A DNA stretch of 21,131 nucleotides from a virus. Of this stretch, positions 766-13,609 are shown piece by piece. The stretch spans positions 1-21,131 of IMG/VR virus record IMGVR_UViG_3300015371_000217; one strand, given 5' to 3'. The stretch's first letter is position 1, and each line of letters opens with the position of its first letter. The translations under genes and the position numbers were made by a program. Under the pieces are notes generated by a model. It was not told the origin of the DNA and did no database searches. It saw nothing but the letters and a program-made list of their open reading frames with translations.

Positions 766-2281
766 CTTCTGCGGCGATGACATCATCGGATGGATACAGG
801 ACCATTGCCGAATTCCTGACGGCGCTGGAGTCGGCAGTCCGGTCAAGCTGCGGGATTGGCAGTGCGATGAGATCCGCAAGATATACGACAATCCGGCTGG
901 GACTAGACGTGCTCTCATATCCTTTGGCCGGAAGAATGCTAAAACTACATTGGCAGCATTCCTGCTTCTTGCTCACCTGGTTGGAAAACCATCGAGGCCC
1001 AATTCACAGCTCGTTAGTGCGGCGCAGTCAAAAGAGCAGGCAGGCGTCATATTCGCATTGGCGGCCAAGATCGTCCGAATGTCGGAGAAGCTGAGCAAGG
1101 CGATAACGATTAGGGACCATACTAAGGAGCTGTATTGCCCGGCTCGGGGTACGCTGTATCGGGCCTTGAGTGCGGATGCCAAGACGGCTTACGGGCTGAG
1201 CCCTAGCTTTATAGTCCATGATGAATTGGGACAGGTGAAGGGGCCTAGGTCTGAGCTTTATGAGGCTCTGGAGACGGCGGTAGGGGCTCATGCCAATCCG
1301 TTGTCGATAGTCATCTCCACGCAGGCTCCTACTGATGGGGACCTGTTATCGGTTCTGATAGACGATGCCATCGCAGGCCACGACCCAAGGACCGTGGTGA
1401 GCTTGTATTCGGCTCCGGATGATCTGGACCCGTTTTCGGAAGAGGCTATCAGGGCGGCTAATCCGGCGTTTGGAGACTTCCTGAACGCTAACGAGGTTCG
1501 GGCTCAGGCGGCAGACGCCAAGCGGATGCCTAGCCGGCAGAATGAATATGAGAACCTGATTCTCAATCGGAGGGTCGAGAAGCGGGCTCCGTTCATCTCA
1601 CGGGCTTTGTGGAATGAGTGCGCCAAGACGGTGGCGGAATACGGTCCGGAGCTACCGCTATATGGCGGGCTGGATCTGTCGGAGGTGAACGATCTGACGG
1701 CTCTGGTTCTGGTAGGCCAGATAGATGGCATCTGGCACGTTAAGCCGACGTTCTGGTTGCCTGAGGAAGGGCTGTACGAGCGGGCGAGAAAGGACAGGGT
1801 TCCCTATGATGAGTGGCATCGTTCGGGCTATCTGGCCACAGTCCCGGGAGCTTCAGTTTCCTACGAATATGTGGCCGAGTGGCTACACGGTCTCTTCGAA
1901 CGGCATAACATCGTCAAGCTGGCGTTTGACCGGTGGAACTGGCGCCACCTTCGTCCCTGGTTGGAACGTGTTGGCTTTACCGAAGAGCAGCTCGAGGAGC
2001 GGTTCGTTGAGTTCGGACAGGGCTTCCAGTCCATGTCGCCTGCCATGAGGGATTTAGAGGGTGAGATTCTTAACGGCAAGCTTGCGCATGGCGATCATCC
2101 TGTTCTTAAAATGTGCGCTTCTAACGCTGTTGTTCAGTCTGACCCTGCTGGAAATCGGAAACTATCTAAGGCGAAGTCTACAGGCCGGATTGACGGAATG
2201 GTTGCGCTTACGATGGCGATGGGCGTCGCCCCGTTGAAGGACGAGCCCATTGATGTTTCAACCATGTTAAGCTTCGCCTAG
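704..2281 (+). CDS. terL: Terminase large subunit
   Basis: A 525-residue packaging ATPase-nuclease of normal length. The N-terminal ATPase domain has a Walker A-type GRKNAKT (residues 75-81), the Walker B run FIVHDE (169-174) and a coupling motif ISTQAP (204-209). The C-terminal RNase H-like nuclease has candidate metal-binding aspartates in GGLDLSEVND (D324), LAFDRW (D409) and GRIDGMVAL (D498). It pumps DNA into the prohead through the portal and cuts concatemers. An A-rich GAAGAG upstream of ATG 704 is a plausible ribosome site. The last 74 bases overlap, antisense, the end of the leftward HTH gene. The portal does not follow it directly, unlike in most relatives. Confidence 0.95.
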   Translation: MTEKRKRARSSKAKTALSGRDFCGDDIIGWIQDHCRIPDGAGVGSPVKLRDWQCDEIRKIYDNPAGTRRALISFGRKNAKTTLAAFLLLAHLVGKPSRPNSQLVSAAQSKEQAGVIFALAAKIVRMSEKLSKAITIRDHTKELYCPARGTLYRALSADAKTAYGLSPSFIVHDELGQVKGPRSELYEALETAVGAHANPLSIVISTQAPTDGDLLSVLIDDAIAGHDPRTVVSLYSAPDDLDPFSEEAIRAANPAFGDFLNANEVRAQAADAKRMPSRQNEYENLILNRRVEKRAPFISRALWNECAKTVAEYGPELPLYGGLDLSEVNDLTALVLVGQIDGIWHVKPTFWLPEEGLYERARKDRVPYDEWHRSGYLATVPGASVSYEYVAEWLHGLFERHNIVKLAFDRWNWRHLRPWLERVGFTEEQLEERFVEFGQGFQSMSPAMRDLEGEILNGKLAHGDHPVLKMCASNAVVQSDPAGNRKLSKAKSTGRIDGMVALTMAMGVAPLKDEPIDVSTMLSFA

Positions 2282-2501
2282 AGCGGAACTCTCGGTCATC
2301 GGAAATCCAAGCGACCACTTCGCTAATTGGCGGAAGGCCAAAGGCGATAGCGGCGCAGGCTAGGCCTATATGGAGCGGAATTTGATGCTCTCCGGTCTCA
2401 TAGGCATGATAGCCATTGCGGGAGATTCCTAGGGCGGCTGCGGCTTCAGTTTTATTAAAGCCGAGCCGTTTGCGCCAAGCGAGGAGGGAAGAGGAGGTCA
2501 T
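2208..2501 (-). CDS. XRE-type helix-turn-helix protein, leftward
   Basis: A 97-residue protein whose first 55-60 residues form a compact Cro/C1-type DNA-binding domain: LLAWRKRLGFNKTEAAAALG, then ISRNGYHAYETGE, with the usual recognition-helix spacing. The following segment (IGLACAAIAFGLPPI) fits the last domain helix. The C-terminal third is basic and unrecognised. It is the last gene of a leftward cassette. Its ATG (2501-2499) overlaps the TGA of the 55-aa gene (2500-2498), so it is probably translated by coupling. Its 3' end runs 74 bases into terL antisense. It most likely binds DNA as a regulator of the cassette or of phage genes; the target is unknown. Its separation from any repressor region argues against it being the main immunity repressor. 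Confidence 0.8.
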   Translation of the reverse strand: MTSSSLLAWRKRLGFNKTEAAAALGISRNGYHAYETGEHQIPLHIGLACAAIAFGLPPISEVVAWISDDREFRSRRSLTWLKHQWARPSTGRRPSPS

Positions 2502-2665
2502 AGTCGGCTCACCGCTATATTGATCCAGCTTGGGTGATCTTCCGGCAAATCCTCTAGGCCATCTAGGAGCAGCATCGATTCTAAAGCTTCGGCAAGTGCT
2601 CGCTTGTCGGGCTTGGCGTCATCATCGAATGTGAACTCCACGGTTATTTCAACGGTTTGTGTCAC
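2498..2665 (-). CDS. Small acidic protein, 55 aa (leftward cassette)
   Basis: A 55-codon leftward frame starting at GTG 2665, with a strong GGAGGG ribosome site 7 bases upstream. It encodes VTQTVEITVEFTFDDDAKPD, then a helical and acidic stretch ending in WINIAVSRL. The alternating hydrophobic N-terminus suggests a beta strand and the middle an amphipathic helix. No family is recognised. The start lies inside the end of the 73-aa gene (17-base overlap) and the stop overlaps the ATG of the HTH gene (ATGA). The ribosome site plus these two junctions are the main evidence that it is real. Its function is unknown; an accessory or partner of the HTH protein is possible but is inference. Confidence 0.7.
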   Translation of the reverse strand: MTQTVEITVEFTFDDDAKPDKRALAEALESMLLLDGLEDLPEDHPSWINIAVSRL

Positions 2666-3083: not shown

Positions 3084-3497
3084 GCCCATTAATGCGCAGG
3101 AAGTCAAGGGAAAAGCGCAAAAGAATGCAAAAATCTGATTTTTCCTGCTCATACTGTGGAGGTGTGGCGGAAACGCAACACGCGGACCACTTCATTCCCA
3201 AGCGCTTAGGCGGGGATGATTCAGAGGAGAATCTGTTTCCGGCTTGCCGCAGCTGTAATTCAAGCAAGGGCGGGAGGTCGTTTGCGGACGCCAGACACTT
3301 TCTCGTCCTGAGAAAGATAGGCTGGCCAAAGTTCACAAAGGCCCAGATCGAATGGATGCGGGAGCGTGATTTCGATCTGTCCGAATACGACGAATGCAAG
3401 CTTCATTTTGAGGAGCACGGGAAGCCAGCGTTCCCAGTCCGGCGAAAGACACAAGCTCAAATTCCGCCTTACGAGGTAAGGCGAGGCATTAATGGGC
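3084..3497. repeat. 12-nt inverted repeat bracketing the HNH gene (3084-3095 and 3486-3497)
   Basis: GCCCATTAATGC at 3084-3095 is the exact reverse complement of GCATTAATGGGC at 3486-3497. Both contain the palindrome CATTAATG, an AT-rich word in a GC-rich region. The left copy lies over the HNH start codon in the divergent gap, and the right copy lies inside the 3' part of the HNH gene. They could be two operator-like sites or remnants of an insertion event. With a palindromic core, chance is also possible. Confidence 0.3.
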
Positions 3498-3565
3498 GGT
3501 TCGAACGCCTTCCTGCCTCCGTCGCCTTACCAGCGTCCGCCTTTTTCCAAGGCGTCAGACTCTAG
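3092..3565 (+). CDS. HNH endonuclease
   Basis: A 157-residue protein. It has a zinc-binding CSYC pair (C19, C22), then QHADHFIPKRLGG with the catalytic DH (D32-H33), the central Asn in EENLF (N47), and a second zinc pair with the last motif residues in CRSCNSSKGGR (C52, C55, N56, K59). This is a complete HNH beta-beta-alpha-metal site. HNH proteins next to terminase genes often assist cos cleavage or packaging, as in HK97 gp74; others are homing nucleases. ATG 3092 lacks a clear ribosome site, and ATG 3125 (11 residues shorter) keeps all motifs and is an alternative. It starts opposite the leftward cassette across a 63-bp gap and ends 11 bases before the capsid gene. A packaging role is inferred from position. 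Confidence 0.88.
   Translation: MRRKSREKRKRMQKSDFSCSYCGGVAETQHADHFIPKRLGGDDSEENLFPACRSCNSSKGGRSFADARHFLVLRKIGWPKFTKAQIEWMRERDFDLSEYDECKLHFEEHGKPAFPVRRKTQAQIPPYEVRRGINGRFERLPASVALPASAFFQGVRL
3465..3530. repeat. Three copies of the octamer CGCCTTAC/GTAAGGCG
   Basis: CGCCTTAC at 3465-3472 and GTAAGGCG at 3476-3483 form a perfect 8-bp stem with a 3-nt GAG centre. A third copy, CGCCTTAC, occurs at 3523-3530. A further CGCCTT/AAGGCG stem (3538-3543 and 3549-3554) follows at the end of the HNH gene. All lie in the roughly 100 bp before the protease-capsid gene. They may structure the mRNA or form binding sites ahead of the most highly expressed gene. No T-run follows, so they are not classical terminators. 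Confidence 0.35.
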
Positions 3566-3576
3566 GGAATAACTCT

Positions 3577-5550
3577 ATGACAGTTCTACATAAAGTCACG
3601 GTAGCCAAGGCTACCGGGGATGACCCGCTTTCGTTCGTCCTATCCGATGACACCAAGGATCGGATGGGCGATGTTATCGACCCGAGCGGTTGGGTCCTTG
3701 ATAACTTCAAGCGGAACCCGGTTGCCCTGTTCAATCACAACAGCTCCTTCCCTATCGGCACCTGGGAGAACGTGCGGAAGGCCGGCGGCAAGCTCGTTGG
3801 CAATCTGAAGCTAGCTGCTAAGGGCACATCAGACCGCATCGATGAGATTCGAAGCCTCGTAGAGCAGGGTGTTCTGCGGGCTGTCTCTGTCGGCTTCCTG
3901 CCGGTCTTGTCCAAGGCAATGGACGATGGCGGGACCCGCTACGTAAAAACAGAGCTTATAGAGACTTCCCTAGTCAGCATCCCGGCAAACCCGGCAGCTA
4001 TTCAGCTGGCCAAGTCTCTCAACGTTTCCGACGCCACGATGGACCTTGTCTTCGGCGAGTCTGCCAAGCGGGACCGGGTCAACAAGGGCGCGGATAAACC
4101 CGGCGAGTCCGCCATTCCGATGAAACTTCATAAGGGCGAGCAAATCCTCAGCCCGAGGCAGAAATCTCCAATGAAAACCATCTCCAAACAAATCGAAGAG
4201 CGACAGGCTTTGCTTGTCTCCCTTCAAGACCAGCTTGCCGCTAAGGTGGCGGAGTTGGACGGCTCGGACGAGCCCGACATTGTCTCGCTTGCCATTGACG
4301 AACTCAACGGCCAGATCGAGAGCAACCAAAAGACCTTGAGCCAGCTTCAGCGGGCGGAACAGTCGCTTGCCAATTCGGCTCCGCAAATCGTGGCCCGTGA
4401 AGCGACTGCCATTGAGGCGGCTCCTCGGCGTCCCTGGGCTGCGCCCAAGAAAGAAATCAAGCCTATCGACCACCTGTTCCGTTCGGCTGTGGTTGCTGGC
4501 GTTGCCAAGGCCCAAGGCCGCGACCCGATTGCGGTTCTCAAGGAACGCTATGGCGAGGACATCCAGACCAAGGCGGTTCTTGACATCGTGACCCGTGCGG
4601 CTTCGGCCCCGGCTCTGACGACAACGACCGGCTGGGCGGCGGAACTCGTTCAGACTGCGTTCCTGGACATGATTGACAGCCTGCTGCCGGCGTCCGTCTA
4701 TCCCGGTCTTTCTAGCCGGGGGCCAAAGTTCACCTTTGGTCGCAATGGTATCGTCAGCATTCCCGCCCGCACGACCTCAACCACGGTTGCTGGCTCGTTC
4801 GTTGCCCAGGGTGCCCCGATTCCGGTTCGGCAGGGCGCCTTCACCGCGACCACGTTGACCGTGAAAAAGATGGGCGTCATCACCTCGTTCAGCCGTGAAA
4901 TGGCTGAGCACTCCACCCCGGCCATCGAGGCAGTTCTTCGCCAAGCCATCATTGAGGATACCAGCGTCGCCATTGACACTGTGCTTCTCGATGCCACGGC
5001 TGCGAGCGCAACTCGCCCGGCGGGCCTCAAGAACGGCGTCTCTGGCCTAACGGCGACGGCGGGCGGCGGTCTTGCTGCTCTCGTGGGCGACGTTAAGCAG
5101 CTGGCTGGCGCTCTTATCGCCGGCAGTAACGGCCATCTGCGTGACCCTGTCTGGATCATGAACCCGATTCAGGTTCTGAGCATTCAGTTTCAGACCAATG
5201 CGAATGGGCAGTTCATCTTCCAGGACGAAATCGCTCAGGGTCGGTTCCGTGGCTATCCGCTCTACCAGTCCACGACCGTTCCTTCTGGGACCGTGTTCTT
5301 GATTGATGCGGCGGACTTCTTCTCGGCCACGGGCGACACTCCGGTGTTCAATGCTTCGGACACCGCAACTCTGCACATGGAAGACACCACGCCGCTTGCT
5401 ATCGGCACGGCTGGCTCTCCTAACACTGTGGCGGCTCCGGTTCGCTCTCTCTACCAGACGGACAGCCTTGCTATTCGTATGACCTGGGACCTGAATTGGG
5501 CCATGCGGCGCACGGGCGTCATTGCCTGGACTTCCTCGGTTACTTGGTAA
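3577..5550 (+). CDS. Prohead protease-major capsid protein fusion (HK97 type)
   Basis: A 657-residue fusion. Residues 1 to about 150 match the U35/S78 prohead protease, with candidate catalytic His54 in ALFNHNSSFPIGTW, Ser104 in LRAVSVGF, and the conserved ETSLVSIPANP (129-139). After a basic linker, residues from about 199 (MKTISKQIEERQALL) to 265 are a coiled coil like the HK97 delta (scaffold) domain. The remainder is an HK97-fold capsid protein ending with SLYQTDSLAIRMTWDLNWAM. The protease should cleave itself and the delta domain away during maturation. The start has AGGGA eight bases upstream. Met199 (ATG 4171), with GAGG 12 bases upstream, could give a protease-free capsid protein by internal initiation. 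These genes are usually separate. Confidence 0.92.
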   Translation: MTVLHKVTVAKATGDDPLSFVLSDDTKDRMGDVIDPSGWVLDNFKRNPVALFNHNSSFPIGTWENVRKAGGKLVGNLKLAAKGTSDRIDEIRSLVEQGVLRAVSVGFLPVLSKAMDDGGTRYVKTELIETSLVSIPANPAAIQLAKSLNVSDATMDLVFGESAKRDRVNKGADKPGESAIPMKLHKGEQILSPRQKSPMKTISKQIEERQALLVSLQDQLAAKVAELDGSDEPDIVSLAIDELNGQIESNQKTLSQLQRAEQSLANSAPQIVAREATAIEAAPRRPWAAPKKEIKPIDHLFRSAVVAGVAKAQGRDPIAVLKERYGEDIQTKAVLDIVTRAASAPALTTTTGWAAELVQTAFLDMIDSLLPASVYPGLSSRGPKFTFGRNGIVSIPARTTSTTVAGSFVAQGAPIPVRQGAFTATTLTVKKMGVITSFSREMAEHSTPAIEAVLRQAIIEDTSVAIDTVLLDATAASATRPAGLKNGVSGLTATAGGGLAALVGDVKQLAGALIAGSNGHLRDPVWIMNPIQVLSIQFQTNANGQFIFQDEIAQGRFRGYPLYQSTTVPSGTVFLIDAADFFSATGDTPVFNASDTATLHMEDTTPLAIGTAGSPNTVAAPVRSLYQTDSLAIRMTWDLNWAMRRTGVIAWTSSVTW

Positions 5551-5977: not shown

Positions 5978-7399
5978 GTGAGTCTTCTCTCTCGTATGCT
6001 CTCCCCTTTCAGGTCTAAGGGCCTGGAAGGGGAGTATCGCCCCGGTCCATACTATCTGCCCTACGAAGGCGGATGGCTGTCTGCTGAGGCGGGCCAGTAT
6101 TTGAATTGGTGGCAGATGGGCTACAACGTGACGAGTGGTGGCGCTAGCGCCATGCTCGAAGCTTGTGTCTCCCGCTACGCCCAGACGGTCTCAATGTGTC
6201 CCGGAGACCATTGGCGCTCCAAGGACAATGGCGGGCGAGAAAGGGTCACTAATTCTGACCTTTCACGGATTATTCGGGCGCCAAACGATTACGAGACGTT
6301 CTCGGACTTCCTGCTCAATCTTGTTCGCGGTCTGTATATCGACGGCAATGCTTACGCTCTGGCGCTTCGCAATAACCGCTTTGAGGTAGATAGCCTCCAC
6401 TTGATGCATCCGACCATGAGCCATCCTCAGGTCTATAGCGGGGAGATATTCTATAGCCTTGGCGGGAACGAGCTAATCAGCCAGAGGCTAACCGGGGCCT
6501 CCAATAATCAGTTGACGGTTCCGGCTCGTGACGTTCTGCATATTCGGCTGCATCGCACTCATTCGAATAGCCTTAAGGGCGAGTCGCCCATCAAGCACGC
6601 TGTGGCGATGGACCTTGCGACTAGCCAAGCAATGACAGCCCACAATCTGGCTTTCTATACAAATCAGAGCAAGCCATCGTTTATTATGACGACCGATGAG
6701 AAGCTGACGGCAGACCAGATCAGGCAGGTCCATGAGGCTTGGAATACCCAGACTCGGGGAGCAAATCAGGGCAAGACTGTTTTCACTAGCGCGGGGTTCA
6801 AGCCGGTTCCGATTTCCGTGAACGCCCAAGATAGCCAGATGGCCGAGATGCTGCGTATGTCCGACGAGCGGATTGCGCTGGCCTATGGCGTGCCGCTCCA
6901 GGTTCTCGGGCTCTCCGGCAAGTCCAGCGGAAGTGGCGCCGGCGGCGCTACCGCTCAGTATATGCAGGAATGGGTCAACGGCGGCCTAGGCTTTGCCCTC
7001 AATCAGGTGGAGGAAGGCTTCGGTCGATTCTTCGGTCTTGATGGCCAGCCCACCGAATACATGGAATTATCTACCGATGTGCTTCTGCGGTCGAGCCTGA
7101 AGGATCGGGTTGCGGCCTACAAGGAAGCGGTCAGCGGTTCTATAATGTCTCCCGATGAGGCTAGGGCGGCTTTCGAATTGCCTAAGACGCCAGAGGGCTC
7201 GGAGCCTCGTGCCCAGCAGCAGCTGGTCCCATTGAGCGCAGCAGGCAAGATGCCTGAGGCCCCTCCATCACCTCAAGCGCCCCCGGCTCAGCCGCAGTTG
7301 CCGGCTCCATCGGACGCTAAAAAGGAATTTGACTTTGACACAGCCGCCCTCCGAAGCCGATTCCGCAGCGCTCAGAATGCCATCGGCACAGCCGCTTGA
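5978..7399 (+). CDS. Portal protein (HK97 family)
   Basis: A 473-residue portal. Recognisable features are the N-terminal EACVSRYAQTVSMCPGDHW, the YIDGNAYALALRN segment, ARDVLHIRLHRTHSNSLKGE, and the conserved region around residue 290 (MLRMSDERIALAYGVPLQVLGLSG) matching the portal wing/stem pattern. The tail is proline-rich (about residues 425-450). Twelve copies would form the DNA channel at the capsid vertex and dock terminase and the connector. The GTG at 5978 has no clear ribosome site, and ATG 5996 (six codons later) is an alternative. It lies after the capsid gene, whereas in most HK97-like phages the portal comes between terminase and protease. Its 3' end overlaps the collagen-like gene. 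Confidence 0.93.
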   Translation: MSLLSRMLSPFRSKGLEGEYRPGPYYLPYEGGWLSAEAGQYLNWWQMGYNVTSGGASAMLEACVSRYAQTVSMCPGDHWRSKDNGGRERVTNSDLSRIIRAPNDYETFSDFLLNLVRGLYIDGNAYALALRNNRFEVDSLHLMHPTMSHPQVYSGEIFYSLGGNELISQRLTGASNNQLTVPARDVLHIRLHRTHSNSLKGESPIKHAVAMDLATSQAMTAHNLAFYTNQSKPSFIMTTDEKLTADQIRQVHEAWNTQTRGANQGKTVFTSAGFKPVPISVNAQDSQMAEMLRMSDERIALAYGVPLQVLGLSGKSSGSGAGGATAQYMQEWVNGGLGFALNQVEEGFGRFFGLDGQPTEYMELSTDVLLRSSLKDRVAAYKEAVSGSIMSPDEARAAFELPKTPEGSEPRAQQQLVPLSAAGKMPEAPPSPQAPPAQPQLPAPSDAKKEFDFDTAALRSRFRSAQNAIGTAA

Positions 7400-8261
7400 T
7401 ATTCTTGCTGACGAGCTCGGAGCGGCTGCTGGGCGGATTGAACGGGAGATAAGGCTTCAGTTCGAGGCGCTAGAGGCTCGGGTTGATGCTCGGCTTGCCT
7501 CGATTGCCTTGGCCGCTGTGGAAGCGGAGAACGAGAGGCAGAGGAAGTTCGAATCTCGCCTTGCGGAGCTTAAAGACGGCAAGGACGGGCGGGACGGCAT
7601 TGATGGCAAAGACGCTGACGTTGAGCCATTGCTTGAAGCGGTGATGGAACAAGGGCGCCACTTATCTGACGTTCTTACTCGTAAGGTTGACGAAAGGCTG
7701 TCTGTGGTCCGCGATGGCAAGGACGGAGAGCCGGGCCCGGCGGGGGAACCAGGGCCCCCCGGCAAAGACGGATTGATGCCTATAGCCCGGGAATGGATGG
7801 CGGGCGTCCATCAGGCAGGCGCCGTGGTCGTTCGCAATGGCTCGACCTATCAGGCTATTCGCGAGACTGATGACGAGCCTCCGGCAAGCGATTGGATTCC
7901 GCTAGCGGTGAGGGGTGACAAGGGCTTCGGCTTTACCCTTCGGGGGACATGGAAAGCGGAAGAGACCTATTCACTAAATGACGTGGTGGTGGTCGACCGT
8001 GGCTCGTTCGGAGCTCTGCGGGACAATCCTGGACCCTGCCCGGGCGAAGGCTGGCAGCTGCTAGCCGGGGCCGGCGGGCGCGGCAAGGAAGGGCCTCCGG
8101 GGCCGCGAGGCGAGAAGGGAATGGATGGCAAGTCTCTGGCAATCGTTAAGCTCGAAGCTGACCCGGATTCGATGCTGCTGCGTATCGTTGACGGGTCTGG
8201 CAAGGTTCACGACCTAGACCTTGAGCCTATCGCCCAGCAGATTCTTGAGGCGGCACGATGA
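7335..8261 (+). CDS. Collagen-like protein with two chitin-binding-like modules
   Basis: About 308 residues. An N-terminal alpha-helical coiled coil leads into a short Gly-X-Y block (DGKDGRDGIDGKD). A second helical stretch precedes a longer block (GKDGEPGPAGEPGPPGKDG). Next come two similar modules with the CBM5/12-like pattern 'W....Y..GD.V...G..Y.A......P....W': one ends in GSTYQAIRETDDEPPASDW, the other starts GTWKAEETYSLNDVVVV. A third Gly-X-Y block (GKEGPPGPRGEKGMDG) and a beta-rich C-terminus close it. Collagen-like blocks trimerise. TTG 7335 is preferred because AAGGA lies 8 bases upstream; TTG 7329 and ATG 7377 are alternatives. Between portal and connector genes, it may be a head or neck fibre that binds surface polysaccharide. 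Confidence 0.75.
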   Translation: MTQPPSEADSAALRMPSAQPLDILADELGAAAGRIEREIRLQFEALEARVDARLASIALAAVEAENERQRKFESRLAELKDGKDGRDGIDGKDADVEPLLEAVMEQGRHLSDVLTRKVDERLSVVRDGKDGEPGPAGEPGPPGKDGLMPIAREWMAGVHQAGAVVVRNGSTYQAIRETDDEPPASDWIPLAVRGDKGFGFTLRGTWKAEETYSLNDVVVVDRGSFGALRDNPGPCPGEGWQLLAGAGGRGKEGPPGPRGEKGMDGKSLAIVKLEADPDSMLLRIVDGSGKVHDLDLEPIAQQILEAAR

Positions 8262-10615: not shown

Positions 10616-11056
10616 ATGGCACTCGCTACAACGGTTCCCTTCAAAAACTTCAAGGTGTTCCTCGGCAACGGGGCTACTCCTGAGGTTTTCACTTCGCCTT
10701 GCGGTCTGACCTCGGCGGGGCTGACCCTTAGCAAGGACACCAATTCCACGGTAGTTCCTGACTGCACGGACCCTGATGCGGCTGCTTGGGTAGAACGGGA
10801 TGTGGTTTCGCTTAGCGCAGCCATTTCGGGTTCTGGCGTTCTGGCGACGGAAAGCCTTGCGACCTGGGAAGCGGCTTTCGTCAGCACGAGCCCGGTTAAT
10901 GTTCGCATCCAAGTGGATGTTCCTACCGTGGGCGGCTACTGGACGGGTGCATTTCATCTTACCCGCTTTGACCCTGCCGGCACTCGTGGCAATCGGGTTG
11001 GCGTGACCATCGCAATGGAAAGCGATGGGAACGTGACTTGGGTTGCTGTGCCGTAA
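10616..11056 (+). CDS. Major tail (tube) protein
   Basis: A 146-residue protein preceded by GGAGA 7 bases upstream. Its pattern is that of small tail-tube proteins: an N-terminal FKNFKVFLGNG strand, TLSKDTNSTVVPDCTDPDA, WVERDVVSLSAAISGSGVLA, WEAAFVSTSPVNVRIQVDVP and the ending VGVTIAMESDGNVTW. Hexameric rings stack around the tape measure to form the tail shaft. The following chaperone genes and the tape measure support this. The stop overlaps the next ATG (TAATG). Confidence 0.88.
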   Translation: MALATTVPFKNFKVFLGNGATPEVFTSPCGLTSAGLTLSKDTNSTVVPDCTDPDAAAWVERDVVSLSAAISGSGVLATESLATWEAAFVSTSPVNVRIQVDVPTVGGYWTGAFHLTRFDPAGTRGNRVGVTIAMESDGNVTWVAVP

Positions 11057-11493
11057 TGTCCCGCGATGCCAAGGTCAGTCTCGAATGGGCTGATGGTGAA
11101 TATGATTTCAAGCTCGGCATCGGAGAGCTTCGGGAGCTTCAAGAGAAGACCCGAAGGGTAAGGAACACCAAGGGCGAATGGGAATACGTTAGCCCAATGA
11201 AATTGTTTTACCGGCTGTCCAATGATGAATGGCTGATTGATGATGTGCGGGAGCCTATTCGGATTGGCCTAATCGGGGGCGGCATGAATCCGATAGAGGC
11301 GGCAAGGCTCGTCAAGCGATATGTGGATGAGGTTCCGGATTGGACCCTGAACTGTACGGTAGCGGCCAATGTGGTTGCGGCGGCTGTTATTGGTGTGGAG
11401 ATTGAACCCTTGGGAAAACGGCAGGGAGCGAAGAACAAGACGGAGCCGATGAGCGACTCTTCTTCGCTCCATTCTACGCCAATGCAGCAGTAA
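11056..11493 (+). CDS. Tail assembly chaperone, short form (GTA gp10/TAC_11-like; lambda G analogue)
   Basis: 145 residues with the GTA gp10-type pattern: VSLEWADGEYDFKLGIGELR, then ELQEKT, followed by an IRIGLIGGGMNPIEAARLVK helix region and YVDEVPDWTLNCTVAANVVA. These proteins bind the tape measure during tail assembly and are not in the virion. The frame extends upstream to TTG 11038, but ATG 11056 overlaps the tube gene's stop and is the natural start. At codons 119-121 the ribosome meets GGGAAAA, a -1 slippery site. Ribosomes that do not slip add 24 more polar residues and stop at 11493. Confidence 0.88.
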   Translation: MSRDAKVSLEWADGEYDFKLGIGELRELQEKTRRVRNTKGEWEYVSPMKLFYRLSNDEWLIDDVREPIRIGLIGGGMNPIEAARLVKRYVDEVPDWTLNCTVAANVVAAAVIGVEIEPLGKRQGAKNKTEPMSDSSSLHSTPMQQ

Positions 11494-11663
11494 TGCAGAT
11501 GCCTCCGTCTGAGATGCTTCGCCTGTCGCTCTGGGAATTTGCCGCGATGGTGCATGGCTGGAACAAAGCAAACGCCCCGGCAGACAAGCCAGAGCCATTG
11601 GACGAAGAGACTGAAGAAGAACTCTTCGAGTTCATCAACGAGAAGCCTATTTGGGTGAACTGA
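11406..11663 (+). CDS. Tail chaperone T-like extension made by -1 frameshift (GT product)
   Basis: The -1 frame is open from just after a TGA at 11403-11405 to the TGA at 11661-11663. After slippage at 11412-11418, translation resumes at 11418 and adds 81 residues, giving a GT fusion of 202 residues (11056-11418 joined with 11418-11663). The extension reads as real protein from the first shifted codons: DERLFFAPFYANAAVMQMPP, then SEMLRLSLWEFAAMVHGWNK and an acidic end. Separate initiation at ATG 11493 would give only 56 residues and would miss the conserved-looking part upstream. In lambda and many siphoviruses the same position encodes gpGT, needed for tape measure loading. The tape measure ATG overlaps its stop. 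Confidence 0.82.
   Translation, partial: TLGKTAGSEEQDGADERLFFAPFYANAAVMQMPPSEMLRLSLWEFAAMVHGWNKANAPADKPEPLDEETEEELFEFINEKPIWVN
11412..11470 (+). promoter_or_regulatory. Programmed -1 ribosomal frameshift element
   Basis: The heptamer G GGA AAA (11412-11418) is in the correct phase of the short chaperone frame. It is followed by a 6-nt spacer (CGGCAG). A perfect 11-bp stem comes next, GGAGCGAAGAA (11425-11435) pairing with TTCTTCGCTCC (11460-11470), around a 24-nt loop. Slippery site, spacer length and stem match the textbook form of bacterial -1 frameshift signals. The lambda G-T site is the related GGGAAAG. The -1 frame downstream is open through 11663. Confidence 0.85.
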
Positions 11664-13609
11664 TGGCACAAGACCTAGAGCAGCTATCCGTTTCCCTTGG
11701 GGCGAAAATTGATGACTTCAAGAAGGGGATGCAGGAGGCTGTTCGAGAGTTCGATACAGACGCCAATCAGATTGAACGGAGGAATCAGCAGCTAACCGAG
11801 AATATGTCTCGGCAGATGCAGAGCACCGCGACTTCTGCTAGGTTCTTGGCCGGTGTTCTTAGGACAGCTTTTTCGGTCTATGCCATCCAGCAATTTACAT
11901 CAGCTGTTCTTGATGCGAACAAGTATGTAGCAGAGCTTGCCAGAACCTCAGACATTGCGAGAGTCTCTACGGAGAGATTGCAACAAATCCAATTTGCAGC
12001 GAAGAGACTGGGCGGCGCTGACCCGAATGATGTTAGCAAGGCTGCTCGCGATCTATCGCAACAAGCCTACAAGGAGGCTCGTGAGGGCGAAGGGGAACTT
12101 ACCAAGTTCCTTGAAGCTAATAACATGAAGCTGACGGACAGGAACGGGAAGGCTAAGGACTTTAACCAGCTGATGGTAATGGCGGCGACGTTGCTGCAAA
12201 GGGCCTCAACCGAAGCGCAAGCGATTGATATAGGCAGACTATTTCATCTTAGCGATGAGATGGTCAAGGCGCTGGAAAAGGGACCGGGCGCATTCAATAG
12301 AATGCAAAACGGAGCCAAGGAAGCCGGGGCGGTTATAAGCCAAGACATTATAGACAAGGCCAAGGTCTTTGACGAGGCGTGGAACAATTCTTGGAGCAAG
12401 TTTCCGACTTACGCTAAGGCTGCTGCCGTTCAAGCCTTGGCTGCTCTTGAACCTTTAGGCACTTGGTTAGAAGCAGTGTTTTCTAAGCTCCCCGGCTTTG
12501 GCATGAAGGTTGGCCAAGCGATTGGGGCATTTAATAGTGATGAGCGTCAGGCTGAGCTAAGAGCAAGGAAGGCCCTCACGGCTGGTCTGCTCCAATATGA
12601 GCGGGATAATTCGCCCATTCGTGGCGTCTCTGGAACTGAACAATACGGTCCTAACCTTCCTTCGATAAACGATCCTAAGAGGGGTGGCGGAGGGGCGAAG
12701 ACTGACGATCTAGAGCGTGCCGAGAAGGCCATGAGGCGGCAAACTGTTGCTCTAGATGCTCAGGCGGCAGCCTTGGGTAAGGCCGGAACGGAAGCAGCGT
12801 TCTTTGAGGCGCAGACTAAGCTTCTGGAAACGGCTCAGCTGGCTGGAATTGAGCCAACCAAAGAGCAGAGAAAGCAGATAGACGAGATTGCTGCGTCCTA
12901 TGCCAAGGCCGCAGAGCATCTAAAGGAAATGAAGCTAGAGACGGACTTGGCTTTTGAGCGGTCTCAGGTATTCCGCACTTCGGATGAGCAGTCAATTGCA
13001 TCCCGGACCCGTGGGCTTGATCCTGATGCAGCCGAACGTGTCGCCAAGAGTATGAGGGAGATTCAGAACCTTACCGAAGGCAAGGAAATGGCGGGCTCTT
13101 TCGTTAAGGGTCTCGTCCACGACCTTGAGAGCGGTGTTAAGGCCGGTCAGGCTCTAGAGAACCAGCTTAAGCGTATAGCCGAGAAGCTGGCAGATAAGGC
13201 AATTGATAGCCTGATTTCTACGGCATTCGGCGGGCTGTTTGGCAGCGGAGCAGGGGGTGGCGGTCTTCTGAGTACTGTATTCCATAGCCAAGGCGGCTGG
13301 GCTGGGCAGGGGCCGAAGTCTCTTGTGCCTGTATCGGCTTTTGCCGGGGCTAGGCAGTTTGCGACGGGGGGCGGGATTCCTGCCATCCTACATGCTGGCG
13401 AGATAGTCCTAAACAAGGCCCAGCAGGCTAACGTGGCGAGGGGCCTGACTACCAATAACCAAGGACCGATAAACCTAACGCACGCTCCTGTAATAAACGG
13501 GACGGGCCTATCGGCTGAACAGGTCTATGCGGTCATTCAGCGGAGCCAGAAAGACTTCTCTCGGCAGATAGGTCCTATCTTTCAAAACTGGCAGATGCGG
13601 CACGGCTGA
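11663..13609 (+). CDS. Tail tape measure protein
   Basis: 648 residues from ATG 11663, which overlaps the TGA of the chaperone extension (TGATG) with GGGTGA just upstream. A TTG at 11651 in frame is less likely. The protein is long, helical and Gln/Ala/Lys-rich. It has hydrophobic stretches near residues 60-85 (ARFLAGVLRTAFSVYAIQQF) and near the C-terminus (SLISTAFGGLFGSG), a Gly-rich linker, and the common tape measure ending ATGGGIPAILHAGEIVLNKA. It sets tail length and helps DNA pass the membrane. At about 1.5 angstrom per residue it predicts a tail near 100 nm. Position after the chaperones is diagnostic. Confidence 0.92.
   Translation: MAQDLEQLSVSLGAKIDDFKKGMQEAVREFDTDANQIERRNQQLTENMSRQMQSTATSARFLAGVLRTAFSVYAIQQFTSAVLDANKYVAELARTSDIARVSTERLQQIQFAAKRLGGADPNDVSKAARDLSQQAYKEAREGEGELTKFLEANNMKLTDRNGKAKDFNQLMVMAATLLQRASTEAQAIDIGRLFHLSDEMVKALEKGPGAFNRMQNGAKEAGAVISQDIIDKAKVFDEAWNNSWSKFPTYAKAAAVQALAALEPLGTWLEAVFSKLPGFGMKVGQAIGAFNSDERQAELRARKALTAGLLQYERDNSPIRGVSGTEQYGPNLPSINDPKRGGGGAKTDDLERAEKAMRRQTVALDAQAAALGKAGTEAAFFEAQTKLLETAQLAGIEPTKEQRKQIDEIAASYAKAAEHLKEMKLETDLAFERSQVFRTSDEQSIASRTRGLDPDAAERVAKSMREIQNLTEGKEMAGSFVKGLVHDLESGVKAGQALENQLKRIAEKLADKAIDSLISTAFGGLFGSGAGGGGLLSTVFHSQGGWAGQGPKSLVPVSAFAGARQFATGGGIPAILHAGEIVLNKAQQANVARGLTTNNQGPINLTHAPVINGTGLSAEQVYAVIQRSQKDFSRQIGPIFQNWQMRHG

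Follow-up and report, generated by a model that had tools for sequence, protein, structure and literature searches.

Gene Order at the Tail Locus

The material analyzed comprised positions 1–21,131 of IMG/VR virus record IMGVR_UViG_3300015371_000217, and this whole stretch of 21,131 nucleotides is referred to below as the window. Siphovirus late genes are recognizable across it (terminase, portal, tail completion, tail tube, a PF11836 gene, and a gene of tape measure size), and a DNA-level search of phage records returned none close or near-identical to the window. On reading the sequence, the 657-aa ORF at 3577–5550 resembles a prohead protease fused to a major capsid protein. Between the terminase and capsid genes, inside the late operon, small opposite-strand genes and an HNH-like endonuclease ORF were noticed by eye (2208–2665, minus strand; 3092–3565, plus strand); one of the small genes resembles an XRE-type HTH regulator. 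A 310-aa ORF with collagen-like repeats (DGEPGPAGEPGPPGKDG) occupies 7329–8261 and overlaps the end of the portal gene.

All of the tail features described below lie on the plus strand. The major tail tube gene (10616–11056) matches PF06199 Phage_tail_2 (Pfam E 6.5e-18). It is followed by a gene of 145 codons (11056–11493; ATG at 11056, TAA at 11491–11493) that we call the gp10-like short form, a tail assembly chaperone, and then by the tape measure gene (11663–13609), which was assigned by position and length and had no Pfam match above the cut-off. The short form thus sits between the tail tube and tape measure genes, and it overlaps an ORF in the −1 frame whose stop codon in turn overlaps the tape measure start as TGATG. 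Such start/stop overlaps recur in the operon, at the 11056 and 11663 junctions. Inside the tape measure gene, at 12702–12763, there is a 15-nt inverted repeat (87%) with a spacing of 32 nt.

The overlap of the short form with the −1 ORF contains every element of a −1 frameshift cassette. The heptamer G GGA AAA (11412–11418) lies in the slippery phase, with GGA at 11413–11415 and AAA at 11416–11418 as zero-frame codons. After a spacer of 6 nt (11419–11424) comes a perfect 11-bp stem with a 24-nt loop, its 5′ arm GGAGCGAAGAA at 11425–11435 and its 3′ arm TTCTTCGCTCC at 11460–11470; the 3′ arm also codes for conserved residues (FFAP) of the −1 frame. Only two inverted repeats of at least 11 nt with arms within 60 nt occur in the 21 kb window, and this is one of them. 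An internal Shine–Dalgarno-like GGAG (11397–11400) lies 11 nt 5′ of the heptamer and is a possible stimulator. The −1 frame extension (11419–11663) encodes 81 residues after the shift and ends with TGA at 11661–11663, and the predicted fusion is a 202-aa protein joined at K121–T122. The first-pass annotation had described the same in-phase heptamer, spacer, stem, open −1 frame, and 202-residue product; direct reading of the sequence, an inverted-repeat scan, and our own count agree with it on each. The minimum-energy fold includes the 11-bp stem, and the cassette has a folding rank of 0.01 among local 60-nt windows, but the folding energy of the whole cassette region is only mildly unusual relative to shuffled sequences (z = −1.5).

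Identity of the Two Protein Parts

The short form matches PF11836 Phage_TAC_11 (GTA-gp10) with a Pfam E-value of 5.5e-16 and 58.9 bits, against a curated cut-off of 27.8, and it also matches PHROG 8985 (E 4.7e-35). Its AlphaFold model (pLDDT 92) is mainly helical with a single beta hairpin. A role as the major tail tube protein is not supported: the helical model is not a beta-sandwich, no tube protein was matched in the PDB, and the tube gene itself precedes the short form. Note that the PF11836 and PHROG 8985 texts and several GenBank phage entries name the gp10-type chaperone a “tail tube protein”.

The extension (P0002) matches PHROG 18467, to which no function is assigned. The AlphaFold model of P0002 (pLDDT 86.7) contains helices at residues 19–27, 32–35, 40–54, and 65–76. 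P0002 gave no match above the curated cut-off to PF09550 Phage_TAC_6 (GTA g10.1), and weak matches to this family were found in three of 58 extensions from relatives (best E 0.011); the extension may be a remote homolog of PF09550. Fold searches turned up no solved relative of either half, nothing credible was matched in the PDB or among viral folds, and a sequence search of solved structures was likewise negative.

Frame Geometry in Relatives

Single-sequence searches of viral contigs with P0001 and P0002 gave no matches, and an alignment query was needed. Alignment searches of viral contigs and bacterial genomes produced 160 loci, most of the named ones from Hyphomicrobiales, which were added to 10 phage records carrying the short form. 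With a profile of the extension, the second part was found in 164 of these 170 PF11836 loci: 163 have it in the −1 frame and one as an in-frame fusion. Because the relatives were fetched via one conserved peptide motif, the sample is biased, and these and later counts are of sequences and not of independent events. None of the 170 loci had the extension in the +1 frame or as a separate gene in frame 0. The extension starts at a near-constant distance from the gp10 start, whereas the zero-frame stop varies from ~320 to 576 nt; this is the geometry of a fusion and not of two genes. In Rhizobium phage RHph_X2_26 (L003:1198–1770), short form and extension constitute one ORF of 190 aa, and the slippery site has been lost.

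The remaining phage records that were read place the second part in the −1 frame, where annotators either call a small protein of its own or call nothing. The extension had been described as hidden, which is accurate for annotations that miss it, but elsewhere it is recorded as a separate hypothetical protein. Similarly, the pairing of a gp10-type short form with a −1 extension stands, but it is family-wide and not peculiar to the window.

Conservation of the Slippery Site

The 153 distinct loci divide into 84 with a canonical heptamer, 65 (~43%) with G GGG GAG, GAA, or GAC at the same place, and four with neither. The canonical class is dominated by GGGAAAA (58) and AAAAAAA (16), with few of any other kind. 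The site is under selection for its phase: within the overlap, 58 copies of GGGAAAA are in the slippery phase and one is in another phase, and the 43 kb of remaining gene sequence has none in the slippery phase. GGGGGAR was likewise found 85 times in phase and twice out of phase. The codons concerned are disfavored elsewhere in these genes, GGA making up 66 of 951 glycine codons (7%), AAA 56 of 266 lysine codons (21%), and GGG 101 of 661 glycine codons; since GGGAAAA is phased in spite of this bias against GGA and AAA, its phasing goes beyond chance. Conservation of the heptamer in relatives had been set as a test of the frameshift, and the site is indeed kept, or else G GGG GAR or A AAA AAA stands in its position.

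Two loci narrow the site of the shift further. In L165 and L098, a shift is possible within only 13 and 16 nt, respectively, and the slippery site, G GGG GAG directly before the gp10 stop, lies inside these intervals. Four canonical heptamers right at the start of the domain (L006, L132, L152, and L164) were set aside as probable chance occurrences; the first three of these loci also carry GGGGGAR upstream in the overlap.

These patterns bear on the idea that the fusion arises by transcriptional slippage instead of ribosomal frameshifting. Runs of at least seven A residues do occur at the same place in some relatives (the 16 AAAAAAA loci), but the window has only four A residues, the family is dominated by GGGAAAA and GGGGGAG and not by long homopolymers, and the stem is placed at ribosomal spacing, so that we regard slippage of the polymerase as highly improbable.

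The Stem and the Upstream Element

The stem covaries within the family. Among 52 representatives, arms from the same genome pair better than arms taken from different genomes (z 9.4, 0/5000), and the corresponding value for control regions farther downstream in the canonical class is about 0. A single pairing register peaks, with 0.67 of positions paired versus 0.33–0.54 at other registers, and compensatory exchanges between G-C, C-G, and A-U occur at positions +7 to +10. The strongest stems of the family mostly begin 5–6 nt after the heptamer. Of 80 representatives, 28 form at least seven of the eight pairs in this register; the others have alternative stems or none. The covariation that had been looked for in relatives is thus present, as compensatory changes in one register, but in only part of the family.

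An 11-bp perfect inverted repeat could also be read as a transcription terminator or as some other RNA element with no relation to decoding. However, its loop is 24 nt long, no T run follows, no terminator-like match was found on the plus strand, no Rfam family scored above threshold, and the spacing between stem and heptamer is fixed across relatives; there is thus scarcely any likelihood that the stem serves such a role.

Shine–Dalgarno-like motifs that end 4–14 nt ahead of the site were seen in 43/84 and 47/65 loci, compared with 12–13% of control positions, an enrichment due in part to a Glu-rich protein motif in this region. The GAG codon is also preferred within the region of that motif. 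The upstream GGAG probably stimulates frameshifting.

Interpretation of the Cassette

We conclude, with a probability of roughly 0.93, that a −1 programmed frameshift joins the PF11836 short form to its C-terminal extension. The reading rests on genomic sequence and is supported by the frame layout of the family, the phasing of the heptamer, the covariation of the stem, and the scarcity of start codons described below. Most ribosomes would read to the stop at 11493 and yield the 145-aa short chaperone. A minority would slip back one base at G GGA AAA (11412–11418), where tRNA-Gly and tRNA-Lys could re-pair on GGG AAA; the stem located 6 nt past the heptamer would promote the slip, and the upstream GGAG probably would too. 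Slipped ribosomes would continue to 11663 and make the 202-aa fusion, which carries a C-terminal helical domain that the short form lacks. If the proteins work as gpG and gpGT do in lambda, the 145-aa product would coat the tape measure protein, and its longer version would bring in tail tube subunits. Our analysis shows the sequence anatomy, the −1 layout across the family, selection on the heptamer, and a covarying stem; that ribosomes shift here, how efficiently, and what the two products do is inferred, and a function like that of lambda G/GT is suggested by position and architecture.

The principal competing view holds the −1 ORF to be a small gene in its own right, translated by termination–reinitiation from the ATG at 11493–11495, with heptamer and stem incidental. 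The ATG does overlap the gp10 stop as TAATG (11491–11495), an overlap that the first-pass annotation had left unmentioned, much as the coupled start does at the tail tube/short form junction (10616/11056) of the same operon; TAATG/TGATG-type overlaps are found in 12 canonical-heptamer and two GGGGGA loci, true gene transfer agent (GTA) clusters often have ATGA-coupled starts, and annotators of several phages have called a separate gene. However, this is the sole candidate start in the window, and it falls inside the conserved domain, which begins upstream; the resulting 56-aa product would lack helix 1 (P0002 residues 19–27). Residues LFFAPFYANAAV, which align with the fused relative, hold this predicted helix (pLDDT about 97), which ends just before the Met at 11493. 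No Shine–Dalgarno sequence is visible before 11493, and the strict phasing of the heptamer and the in-frame fusion in RHph_X2_26 also argue against a separate gene. The first-pass annotation had named, as one possible refutation, a start codon in relatives that turns the −1 ORF into a gene of its own, but no ATG, GTG, or TTG lies between the −1 opening and the domain in 127 of 153 relatives. An independent gene is accordingly improbable, but the 56-aa protein may also be made as a minor second product alongside the frameshift fusion.

Gene Transfer Agents

The GTA set consisted of 72 PF09550 loci (L171–L246), mostly from Hyphomicrobiales; the first were obtained via the genomes of earlier loci, and the rest came from the order of Brucella. 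In 63 of the 72, g10.1 (PF09550) is read in the −1 frame relative to g10. A heptamer without a nearby start codon was found at 28 junctions and a coupled start without a heptamer at 22, and this alternation is significant when kinship is ignored (Fisher 4e-6); clustering at 60% identity gave 50 representatives. In about half of the loci the heptamer is strictly phased and no start codon accompanies it; its sequence is C CCT TTN or, immediately ahead of the stop, A AAC CCT or G GGA AAG. The other loci mostly have an ATGA-type coupled start. The last 45 nt hold AAACCCT (13), GGGAAAG (8), and CCCTTTN (12/13) in slippery phase, all nearly absent elsewhere, with a PFPW motif that is conserved in the −1 frame accounting for some of the CCCTTTC cases.

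These junctions suggest frameshifting in gene transfer agents. As phased heptamers alternate with ATGA starts, a recoding signal of viral type seems to be kept up by hosts in their own genomes, and we lean toward the broader view that −1 frameshifting is a family-wide, possibly ancestral route to the second tail chaperone in PF11836, many domesticated Hyphomicrobiales GTAs included. GTA g10 and g10.1 resemble the genes of the window in that the short form belongs to the same family and the second protein is encoded downstream in the −1 frame; they differ in that they have been published as separate genes and in that many of the GTA copies lack a heptamer and start the second gene by ATGA coupling. 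Papers treating g10 and g10.1/g10.5 as separate mention no frameshift there (PMC11409702, PMC9765227, PMC7296036), and in the one GTA paper found to describe a frameshift, the shift is +1 and affects a Wolbachia hydrolase (PMC10299305). No report of a g10/g10.1 frameshift was found in the open-access literature. The −1 junction of GTA g10/g10.1 may be newer than the phage finding. If GTAs keep or lose recoding as suggested, it becomes testable whether g10 and g10.1 are simply two genes, as published.

Comparison with Known Systems

These results allow a widespread family of alphaproteobacterial phages to be reannotated: its second chaperone domain appears in records as small hypothetical genes or not at all, and the first part is labeled a tail tube protein. 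Rhizobium phage 16-3 p015/p016, RHph_TM3_3_14B EVB67_080/081, and Mesorhizobium phage vB_MseS-P1 gp41/gp42 are homologous gene pairs in a like arrangement; each is annotated as two proteins, and each has GGGGGAR at the junction. The natural series of GGGAAAA, GGGGGAR, A7, and in-frame fusion offers a test of the requirements of bacterial −1 sites.

GGGGGAA (“fivetwo”) is known from annotated tail chaperones of actinobacteriophages (PMC10885494) and has been proposed for corynephage phi16, together with an internal Shine–Dalgarno (GAGG) and a downstream structure (PMC5506516). These sites are of a non-XXXYYYZ class, as are ~43% of those in the present family, but their hosts are different, and the window itself has the classical GGGAAAA.

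The cassette is of the lambda G/GT type and thus of a kind already known, and no report of a −1 frameshift in the GTA-gp10-type (PF11836) family was found in the literature searched. In lambda, a −1 programmed frameshift between G and T produces the tail assembly chaperones gpG and gpGT (PMC5009743). The gene order is alike (tail tube, short chaperone, −1 extension, tape measure), and so are the predicted short and extended products. In frameshifts of this type, an RNA structure 5–9 nt downstream is a common but not obligatory stimulator, and the stem of the window has this spacing. The first-pass annotation called the extension T-like; a −1 domain does stand in the place of T, but it has no detectable homology to lambda T. 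The proteins here differ from lambda G/T in being of the PF11836 type, with no homology to G or T detected, and the site differs in having a long downstream stem and a Shine–Dalgarno-like element.
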